The position numbers and the translations under genes were made by a program. The notes under the pieces are model-generated. The model was not told the origin of the DNA and did not search any database. It worked only from the letters and a program-made list of their open reading frames with translations. From Natronolimnobius sp. AArcel1 (GTDB lineage: Archaea; Halobacteriota; Halobacteria; Halobacteriales; Natrialbaceae), in NCBI RefSeq assembly GCF_011043775.1, contig NZ_JAAKXY010000004.1, positions 186,001-250,000 on the forward strand: a stretch of DNA of 64,000 nucleotides, in the 5' to 3' direction. Each line of letters starts with the position of its first letter. Positions within the stretch are counted from its first letter, which is position 1. This document shows positions 24,771-26,919 of this stretch, piece after piece.

Positions 24771-25088
24771 ATGAGTTCCGAAGGCAAGAAGCGGGTTCAG
24801 TTCCGCGCTCCCCAGGGGTTAGTCGACCGGGCAGATGCACTCGCAACCGTCCTCGAGACTGACCGCACGGACATCCTTACCAACGCATTGCGTGAGTACC
24901 TCCGGGATGCATCTCACGATGACGACAGTAAGCAGGAGATCGCAGAGGCATACTATGCTGACGATATCACGTTTCAAGAAGTAAAAGAACTCGTCGGACA
25001 CGAAGAGGCTGCAAACTTTCGCGTCCTAAAGAACCAATTACGTGACGAGTTCGTCAACGAGACTGCAGAGGAGTTGGCGGACTCATAA
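24771..25088 (+). CDS. Ribbon-helix-helix/UPF0175-like antitoxin
   Basis: A 105-residue protein. The N-terminal KKRVQFRAPQGLVDRADALA plus LETDRTDILTNALREYLRD fits a ribbon-helix-helix DNA-binding dimer. The C-terminal half (ADDITFQEVKELVGHEEAANFRVLK) resembles UPF0175-type antitoxins. It probably represses its own operon and neutralises the PIN protein encoded directly after it, with the two genes abutting at the stop (TAAATG). The pair lies next to tRNA-Gln, a common island site. Confidence 0.75.
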   Translation: MSSEGKKRVQFRAPQGLVDRADALATVLETDRTDILTNALREYLRDASHDDDSKQEIAEAYYADDITFQEVKELVGHEEAANFRVLKNQLRDEFVNETAEELADS

Positions 25089-25601
25089 ATGGCGCTACTC
25101 GTCGCAGACACCTCCGCTCTTGTGAGTCTTGGAACCGTCGAAGCGCATGCACAGACACCTCTCAGTATTCTTCTTGACACCAATCAAATTTGTATCCCCG
25201 AACAGGTGGTCACAGAATTAGAAGAAACTGCAGCGTACGATGACCCATCAGGAAACGCTTCGCAGGCCGTTCTTGACCGTCTGTCGGCATTCAACGTACG
25301 AGCCGTGACACTCGATGAGGACTTTCCGCTTGACGATGGCGAGAACGCCGCGGTTTCACTGGCCAATGACCTCGAGGCGAGACAATTTCTTTGTGACGAA
25401 TTCAACAAACTCGCTCTTATTCACGCCTCCTTAGCTGATACTCGACTTGTGACAACACCGACGCTCTTGACCGCGTTAGTTCGCAACGAACACCTTGCTC
25501 CAGCAGACGCAACCGCCCTGTTATCGACGATGAGCGACGCCCGGAGTTGGGAAACGAACACGTACGTCGCGCAGGCACAGAAAACTCTTAAACGGCAGTA
25601 G
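25089..25601 (+). CDS. PIN-domain nuclease, VapC-type toxin
   Basis: A 170-residue PIN-domain protein beginning LLVADTSALVSLGTV, with the first acidic metal ligand Asp in strand 1. Further acidic residues are seen at TELEETAAYDD, DDGENAAVSLAND and RQFLCDEFNKL, which fit the four-acid site of PIN RNases. Toxin PIN enzymes cut RNA, often tRNA. With the upstream RHH protein it forms a type II toxin-antitoxin pair. Activity is inferred from the fold only. Confidence 0.75.
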   Translation: MALLVADTSALVSLGTVEAHAQTPLSILLDTNQICIPEQVVTELEETAAYDDPSGNASQAVLDRLSAFNVRAVTLDEDFPLDDGENAAVSLANDLEARQFLCDEFNKLALIHASLADTRLVTTPTLLTALVRNEHLAPADATALLSTMSDARSWETNTYVAQAQKTLKRQ

Positions 25602-25621
25602 AGAACTCGTATTTCTTATCA

Positions 25622-25639
25622 TCTCGGGCGGATTCGAAC
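25622..25639 (-). repeat. Degenerate copy of tRNA-Gln 3' end
   Basis: The segment reads TCTCGGGCGGATTCGAACT on the plus strand from 25622. It matches the T-arm/acceptor end of the tRNA-Gln gene at 25839, with two mismatches. It lies on the side where integrations into the tRNA 3' end would leave attachment-site copies. Confidence 0.55.
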
Positions 25640-25736
25640 TTCATAGACTCGAGTTTGGGTGTGTACTGGGGCTTGTCGAGGACAGTTGTTGCTCGAAGGA
25701 GATTCACCTGGACCAATTAATGTAAAATATTTGATG

Positions 25737-25760
25737 TAGTCCCGGGCGGATTCGAACCGC
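25737..25760 (-). repeat. Perfect 24-bp copy of tRNA-Gln 3' end (att-like)
   Basis: The 24 bases from the discriminator position through the T-loop and into the T-stem are identical to those starting at 25839. Sequence diverges immediately after. The 102-bp distance to the real tRNA end suggests a residual attachment site from an excised or decayed integrated element. Confidence 0.8.
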
Positions 25761-25838
25761 GCAGACTCGAATCCTCTCGTCTGCTGGGCTCGAACCGCCG
25801 GGGATACTTGCGGCTCACGGGTTTGTTCGGCGCAAAAG

Positions 25839-25941
25839 TAGTCCCGGGCGGATTCGAACCGCCGTCCTGAGCTCACTTCCGTGACGGCCGAAACCGGACA
25901 CGTCCAAAGGCTCAGATGATTGGCCACTACACCACGGGACT
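25839..25941 (-). tRNA. tRNA-Gln(UUG) with a 30-31 nt intron
   Basis: Acceptor AGTCCCG/CGGGACT with discriminator A; T-arm GGCGG-TTCGAAT-CCGCC; anticodon stem TGAGC/GCTCA with loop CTTTGGA (anticodon TTG). About 30 nt are inserted after position 37, the canonical archaeal intron position. The intron (ACGTG to AAGTG) can form a hairpin suited to a bulge-helix-bulge for the splicing endonuclease. A UUG tRNA-Gln intron of this size is known in Haloferax volcanii. The D-stem pairs only weakly (GTG/CAT), so this copy is worth checking for function. Confidence 0.88.
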
Positions 25942-25971
25942 CCTCGTTACACTCGTCGTCCCGTGAGGCTC

Positions 25972-26125
25972 GTAAACCCGTCGGTTTACTCACCACCACG
26001 GGACTTCTCACTCCGTTCAAAGCCCCATGTAGTTCGTAAATCCATCGGATTTACTCACTTCCGTGAGGCATCAGCCGCCTCACGTTGTTCGCAGTTTCTT
26101 CGAAACTGCTCACCACCACGGGACT
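25972..26125. repeat. Cluster of four small hairpins with duplicated tRNA 5'-end fragments
   Basis: Four perfect short inverted repeats stand in a row: GTAAACC/GGTTTAC (25972-25989), GTAAATCC/GGATTTAC (26036-26054), GTGAGGC/GCCTCAC (26063-26083) and GCAGTTTC/GAAACTGC (26091-26109). The first and last are each followed by the same 17 bases, CTCACCACCACGGGACT (25989-26005 and 26109-26125). These contain the first 11-12 bases of the tRNA-Gln gene on the opposite strand. The arms differ in sequence, so this is not CRISPR. Confidence 0.8.
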
Positions 26126-26169
26126 CCGTCGGGCGTCATCGCTTGATAGCGCATGCCCGCACAATAGTG

Positions 26170-26919
26170 TTACTTTTCGTCTCGAGGCGAAACCGCTATC
26201 GACCCCGCTTCAGCATGGCGATGGCAGGGCCGACAGAGCGTGATAACGTTATCCATCGTATGCGCATCCGCGGGTTGGTCAAACGACCGAACAGGCTCGA
26301 GATGGTGGACATCCGGATTCTTCCCCAACTCGTCCGCACCGACGCCACAGTGTTGGCACTCGTAGCCGTCGCGCTCGAGTGCCTGTCGTCGGATTCGCCA
26401 CCACCGTTTCCCGTAGTTGATCACGCCGCCTTCCCACTGGTGATGGTCGGGTCCGACGACGTTCTCCGAAAGCCACTCGCCGTAGCACTCGAGCGTACAG
26501 AAACAACCGCGTTTTCGCTTGTCTGCTTTCGCTGGCCGAACCTCGAGTTTCGACCTGCAATATCCGCACTCGACGGTAACGCGCGTGCCTTTCTCCGACG
26601 GATTTTCAGGGAGCAATCCAATCGCATCCTCGACGCACCCCGGACAGTAGACGCCGTCTTTGTCGGACGGATAGTATGAAAACGTCTCACCACACGAGTC
26701 ACAGGTCGCTGATTCTTTCGCATCCCGCCAGTTACCGTTGTGCTCGCCCGCGTTTGGGTTGCAGTCGTCACAGAACTCGAGGCGGGCCTTCGGATCATAA
26801 AACTCGCTTCCACACCCGCTACAGGTCCGGTTCGGAAGCGACTCGCCGTGGACTTTCGTATGGTGCTGGCGCATTCCCTGTTCGGTACTCAGTGATTTTC
26901 CACACGTCGGGCAGTCCAT
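26170..26919 (-). CDS. HNH endonuclease with N-terminal zinc fingers
   Basis: A 249-residue Cys/His-rich protein. It starts with a C2H2 finger (MDCPTCGKSLSTEQGMRQHH), then further CxxC pairs (CSGCGSEFYD, CDSCGETF, CPGC, CGYCRSKLE). It ends in an HNH nuclease module: RDGYECQHCGVGADELG, DVHHLEPVRS, DNVITLCRPCHRHAE. Such proteins nick or cut DNA and are typical of mobile or defence genes. It sits alone beside the rearranged tRNA-Gln region, consistent with mobile-element activity there, though a link is not shown. Confidence 0.85.
   Translation of the reverse strand: MDCPTCGKSLSTEQGMRQHHTKVHGESLPNRTCSGCGSEFYDPKARLEFCDDCNPNAGEHNGNWRDAKESATCDSCGETFSYYPSDKDGVYCPGCVEDAIGLLPENPSEKGTRVTVECGYCRSKLEVRPAKADKRKRGCFCTLECYGEWLSENVVGPDHHQWEGGVINYGKRWWRIRRQALERDGYECQHCGVGADELGKNPDVHHLEPVRSFDQPADAHTMDNVITLCRPCHRHAEAGSIAVSPRDEK

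Follow-up and report, generated by a model that had tools for sequence, protein, structure and literature searches.

Hairpin units carrying copies of tRNA ends adjoin tRNA-Gln(UUG) and other tRNA genes in haloarchaea

Introduction

Which process surrounds an intact tRNA gene with copies of both its own ends? The question is raised by tRNA-Gln(UUG) of Natronolimnobius sp. AArcel1, located in the 64,000-nt stretch of DNA analysed here (the window). An earlier note on this DNA took the copies of the 3' end for attachment-site (att) relics of integrated elements. The locus was therefore compared with a sister species of the same genus, with further relatives, and with other tRNA genes and genomes.

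Results

Repeats on both sides of tRNA-Gln(UUG)

The repeats that had been reported around tRNA-Gln are all present, at 25737, 25619, 25994 and 26114 (Table 1), at or within a few bases of where the earlier note placed them. The 21-nt direct copy, here termed T, lies within 25 bp (25736–25760) that repeat the tRNA 3' end perfectly, and the first 12 bases of the tRNA recur in two perfect (12/12) copies at 25994–26005 and 26114–26125. Shuffling the surrounding 1.5 kb 200 times gave best matches of 15/21 for the 3' end and 10/12 for the 5' end. Since no shuffle reached the observed 21/21, 18/21 or 12/12 matches, chance repeats were rejected as an explanation.

Read in the sense of the tRNA, the 3' unit follows the plan T-A-T'-B-T, i.e. 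tRNA end, hairpin A, inverted copy, hairpin B and direct copy. The 5' side follows the same plan with T5 = AGTCCCGTGGTG and units of ~65 bp. The inner 5' unit consists of the T5 copy (25994–26005), hairpin A5 (~25972–25989), the inverted T5' (~25957–25966) and a loop, followed by the tRNA. The outer 5' unit contains the motif GAACGGAGTGA (26007–26017) and a further 55-bp hairpin insert (26054–26108), bounded by GTGAG and missing from the sister species. A 13-mer, CTCACTTCCGTGA, is found in the tRNA-Gln intron (25872–25884) and again in the outer 5' unit (26054–26066).

The conserved box upstream of these units (26150–26180) is probably the promoter of tRNA-Gln. If so, the 5' units would sit within the pre-tRNA leader, lengthening it by 64–184 nt.

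Table 1. Features at the tRNA-Gln(UUG) locus (window coordinates).
Feature	Position	Strand	Basis or remarks
tRNA-Gln(UUG) gene, 30-nt intron at ~25874–25903	25838..25941	minus	ARAGORN; Rfam RF00005, 45.6 bits
Complete 3' unit (hairpin A, T', hairpin B, T), ~102 bp	25737..25838	minus	Not in sister species; present in 12 relatives
Hairpin A of 3' unit, TTTTGCGCC-GA-AC-..-GT-GA-GCCGCAAG in the window copy	25807..25836	minus	Alignment, compensatory changes
T', inverted copy of tRNA-Gln 3' end	25787..25802	minus	Folds against T; match to own tRNA above permuted in two genomes
Hairpin B of 3' unit, GCAGAC-GA..GA-GTCTGC	25761..25784	minus	Alignment, compensatory changes, fold
T, direct copy of tRNA-Gln positions 53–73	25737..25757	minus	21/21 match; borders from 44 tRNAs
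Older, decayed 3' copy of tRNA-Gln	25619..25639	minus	18/21; homologous remnant in sister species
Inner 5' unit	25942..26005	minus	Absent in sister species
Outer 5' unit: T5 copy (26114–26125) and sister-type hairpin segment (26006–26053)	26006..26125	minus	
Conserved box AAAAGTAACACTATTGTGC upstream of tRNA-Gln	26150..26180	minus	Kept in nearly all relatives
HNH protein gene	26170–26919		Directly upstream of tRNA-Gln in family loci examined
Two-gene pair labelled VapBC	24771–25601		Also in sister species

Architecture and folding of the units

T' and T pair into one long stem that encloses hairpin B. The 5' copies had been described as joined to hairpins, and the segment 25930–26135 indeed folds at z = −9.3. 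Beyond that earlier description, the 3' side is hairpin-joined as well (z = −5.6 as RNA, −3.1 as DNA), inverted end copies separate the direct ones, and the arrangement is repeated at tRNA genes throughout the class. The units measure 65–160 bp and are gene-less, with no tyrosine integrase or cargo between the copies; the inverted parts seen in them are tRNA ends and inner stems.

The borders of T are sharp. Averaged over 44 tRNAs, identity between tRNA and copy is 1.00 at G53, 0.59 one base before it and ~0.5 just past the discriminator; because of this jump and drop, T was defined as tRNA positions 53–73.

In the Gln 3' unit 97% of the alignment cells pair, with 20 double-sided changes against 8.3 expected from shuffles and 0–2 when the alignment was slid. 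The figures for the 5' unit are 98% and 27 double-sided changes, against 8.1 expected. This covariation shows that the hairpins are maintained, either by selection or by palindrome correction. An excess of G.T over A.C is weak, similar in controls and too small to discriminate RNA from DNA.

Many of the hairpins combine tandem GA/GA mismatches with a GNA-type loop (motif GA-N-C-GNA-G-N'-GA) and may resemble the stable d(GCGAAGC) mini-hairpins. Of 37 occurrences of the GA motif downstream of tRNAs, 35 are on the sense strand of the tRNA, a bias compatible with an RNA or with target-oriented insertion. An Rfam search returned only tRNA matches for the window stretch and no others in units of eleven further loci.

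Distribution among tRNA genes and genomes

Taking a match of at least 17/21 to a tRNA's own 3' end as a copy, the end is repeated downstream of 97 of 204 tRNA genes in six haloarchaeal genomes from five families, with upstream controls near zero. Such copies follow 26/43 tRNAs in this genome and 23/42 in the sister species, and none lies upstream. The tRNA's own end is the unique best downstream match in 30/43 and 28/42 cases, respectively, compared with one each upstream. In four genomes from four other families the copies follow 15/29, 11/31, 14/30 and 8/29 tRNAs; 2, 0, 0 and 0 of them have their own end as the unique best upstream match. Taking this genome and its sister species together, 55 of 85 tRNA genes bear units, 76 in all.

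A search for T'-B-T was made with the pattern GATTTGAA-N25-55-TTCAAATC, using the reversed pattern as control. It was found in 60/61 genomes of the family and in 215/242 of the class Halobacteria, and the control gave 0. Outside Halobacteria, 7/123 genomes contain a single match each, and the three listed are without the hairpin pair. Units are thus nearly restricted to Halobacteria.

Among the 60 pattern loci fetched, 56 adjoin a tRNA. The apical motif has a density of 2.9/kb in the first 100 bp past tRNAs versus 0.02/kb beyond 500 bp. A general haloarchaeal intergenic motif was rejected, as the apical motif clusters by tRNAs and has a single occurrence in the 64-kb window, which falls in the tRNA-Gln 5' unit. 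Upstream of a tRNA-Gly in one haloarchaeon (locus L100:749-848), a match to Rfam L4-Archaeoglobi (RF03135) was seen.

Differences between species and array polarity

In the sister species tRNA-Gln is directly joined to the same flank, ~101–102 bp being absent. The stretch 25622–25838, which the earlier note proposed to check for variability, is thus variable, and the note's view that the copies mark repeated insertion at this tRNA is confirmed. Relatives do not share one fixed arrangement; the insertions differ among them. Of 29 family loci, ~12 have an intact tRNA-Gln 3' unit and 3 have part of it, the others having none; their 5' units number 0, 1 or 2, with a period of 65 bp.

Other tRNAs differ likewise. 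This genome has extra sequence at Gln (+101 bp), Ile (+131), Ala-ggc (+128), Ser-cga (+299, two units) and Leu-caa (+112), and the sister species at Ala-cgc (+217, two units) and Lys-ttt (+122). Whole-unit differences begin exactly at the tRNA end, the flank resuming after them, and most adjoin the tRNA. Simple tandem duplication of the tRNA plus flank was rejected: beyond the last copy, the flank is unlike the unit and carries on from the empty site of the sister species. Two species do not separate gain from loss, and recombination between 21-bp copies could also delete whole units.

In 17 of 20 multi-copy arrays the copy nearest to the tRNA is the most faithful, and in one it is the least (sign test, 7e-5). 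Arrays decay outward from the tRNA.

Probable exchange at tRNA-Gln, and the neighbouring genes

Compared with the sister species, the HNH gene is 88% and the downstream flank 92% identical, but the intron is only 81% identical and the 3' unit is missing there. Against three other genera the order is reversed: HNH is 71–79% identical and the downstream flank close to chance, with exons at 100%, the intron at 94–97% and the unit at 93–98%. Because intron and unit are near-identical to those of other genera while the neighbouring genes diverge, tRNA-Gln and its inner units were probably exchanged as a block with another genus, by horizontal replacement. The replacement seems to have left the resident 5' end (25994) and 3' end (25737) outside the block. 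Also outside it are the sister-type 5' unit (26006–26125) and the further 55-bp hairpin insert.

The HNH gene had been suspected to be the leftover of an integrated element. This was rejected, as it is kept beside tRNA-Gln in the relatives checked; its position is conserved host synteny. The label VapBC is unproven for the other pair: no significant family match was found, the second protein giving a weak PIN-like match (E 0.037) and the first none. The pair probably entered in or near this genus, because it is present in the sister species and absent between the tRNA and guaB in at least two relatives (L254 and L255).

Origin of the copied end

Units at different tRNAs can share their interior. 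An identical 57-nt T'-B core is found at tRNA-Ser(UGA) of this genome and tRNA-Gly(UCC) of the sister species, whose tRNA 3' ends agree in just 13/21 positions. Close versions occur at Leu and Gly(GCC), where the A hairpin differs in each case and T is that of the local tRNA. A 40-nt stretch is identical between a Ser unit of one family and a Val unit of another, both of which keep their own T, and a 33-nt A hairpin is common to Met and Gln of two families. Since common cores at different tRNAs carry the end of the local tRNA, the copy derives from the target. Hairpins A and B reassort independently of each other, and what moves may thus be less than a whole unit.

For the inverted copy, an ungapped 21-nt test gave almost no own-specific signal. 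A test focused on T' did: its match to the own tRNA is 0.722 versus 0.605 ± 0.014 when permuted (two genomes), mainly near the T-loop.

Discussion

We put at about one in two the probability that the units are miniature, gene-less hairpin elements that insert at tRNA ends with target duplication. Entry would take place precisely at the mature end of the tRNA, of which each unit would leave a copy: positions 53–73 for 3' units or, more rarely, roughly the first 12 nt for 5' units. The tRNA would stay intact and the next unit enter at the same place, so that the array grows outward with the oldest copies farthest away. Mobilisation would occur in trans through a putative recombinase or transposase. 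The hairpins, with their strand-specific tandem-GA motifs and GNA loops, may be the feature recognised by this enzyme, or may keep the pre-tRNA foldable; pairing or palindrome correction might bring T' into agreement with T.

This account brings together the architecture, the target-derived copies, presence or absence at exact ends, the outward decay of arrays, cores shared between tRNA types and families, covarying stems and the near restriction to Halobacteria. As in miniature insertion elements (MITEs), the units are small and gene-less, are polymorphic for presence at exact borders, and come with a target site duplication, here a 21-nt copy of positions 53–73 of the local tRNA. This duplication is far longer than usual for known transposases. 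The partial match of T' to its own tRNA is not predicted by simple insertion, and the conserved stems, together with the precedent of the small RNA RttR in Escherichia coli, would also fit an RNA role.

We would ourselves bet against a bolder version, offered tentatively: that these are class-wide, still active, tRNA-anchored hairpin cassettes whose putative enzyme copies the target end at each insertion, forming outward arrays like those of integrons or CRISPR, with cores exchanged across families and the rtT repeats of E. coli as a bacterial instance of the same process.

Three other explanations were weighed. The units could belong to the host as RNA elements like rtT (rttR), i.e. leader or trailer ncRNA modules processed from the tRNA transcript, retained because they serve regulation or maturation and dispersed among tRNA genes by recombination. 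The strand bias of the structural motif (35 vs 2) and the covarying stems are what such modules would display, the Gln 3' unit is retained in other families while its flanks diverge, and E. coli tyrV/tyrT repeats of the same T-A-T'-B-T order yield an annotated small RNA. Presence is patchy, however: half of the tRNAs have no unit, and for a given tRNA the sister species can have a different unit or none. Moreover, the G.T excess expected for RNA barely departs from controls; we regard this explanation as unlikely, though worth keeping in mind. Template switching during replication of tRNA genes would produce T-T'-T palindromic duplications, with quasipalindrome correction keeping the stems matched and no mobile element involved. 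It would account for the alternation of direct and inverted copies, for a T' that matches its own tRNA above chance and for covariation, but not for A and B cores that are not locus-derived and recur identically over 33–57 nt at different tRNAs and families; nor are restriction to one class and sharp, uniform borders expected from it. We consider it quite improbable.

The interpretation proposed in the earlier note was that of att scars, left by tyrosine-integrase elements that integrated and were then excised or internally deleted. Like known att sites, the copies do run from the T-loop to the 3' end of the tRNA, and some archaeal integrases use 5' halves (PMC8371274); tRNA remnants adjoin full tRNAs beside such elements in Haloferax gibbonsii (PMC7921747); and here, too, a 3'-end copy flanks the insertion and the tRNA is intact. 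Against this, the insertions are 65–160 bp long and gene-less, built of conserved, paired hairpins with an inverted tRNA end, and they affect 49 of the 85 tRNAs of two genomes; none of the units seen is a large element. A fixed attP is disfavoured because an element carrying it would bring a foreign tRNA end, while at Ser, Gly and Leu tRNAs one core is accompanied in each case by the local end. Att scars were on these grounds rejected as the main cause, and we hold them very improbable as a reading of the units; that the 5' copies call for something other than integration and excision at an att site, as the earlier note itself held, stands.

Comparison with known systems

Several known systems share single traits with the target-copying insertions favoured here. 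Integron cassette arrays grow in a polar manner at one anchor, and casposons insert at tRNA 3' ends with target duplication; both carry genes and depend on known enzymes. Mitochondrial double-hairpin elements are mobile hairpins. To our knowledge, none of the three copies the end of a neighbouring tRNA in direct as well as inverted orientation.

Tyrosine-integrase elements that use archaeal tRNAs have been reviewed in detail (PMC8371274). Those of the SNJ2 and XerC/D types at haloarchaeal tRNAs duplicate part of the tRNA 3' end and can stack in tandem, but are kilobase-sized with an integrase and a fixed attP, and are without the inverted tRNA end, the hairpin pair and a target-derived copy. 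The PATEs, SMRs and MITEs of Haloquadratum are likewise small, gene-less, palindromic mobile repeats of haloarchaea; as described, they are not tied to tRNA ends, and PATEs and SMRs cause no target duplication (PMC3119063). The haloarchaeal units were not found described as a system in the freely accessible literature searched, and the pattern looks widespread and largely undescribed. About half of the haloarchaeal tRNA genes examined bear units, with turnover within one genus. This would point to a large class, so far unrecognised, of elements that target tRNAs or of tRNA trailer RNAs, and would caution that 'partial tRNA' att calls in haloarchaea can be wrong.

The closest likeness is to the rtT (rttR) repeats of E. 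coli tyrT/tyrV, a locus annotated as the source of the small RNA RttR. Tested on the sequence, the last 19 nt of the tRNA recur downstream of tyrV three times at a 178-bp spacing, and an inverted copy, GGGGAAGGAT, precedes each direct copy, giving the order T-A-T'-B-T of the haloarchaeal units, which also have downstream 3'-end repeats with an inverted copy before each. Unlike these, rtT was seen at one locus as exact tandem repeats, with a copy that starts inside the T-loop and a longer unit, whereas the haloarchaeal units occur at many tRNAs, with cores that differ and swap and turnover between species. If hairpin units do copy their target on insertion, this would give the E. coli rtT repeats an origin that can be tested.
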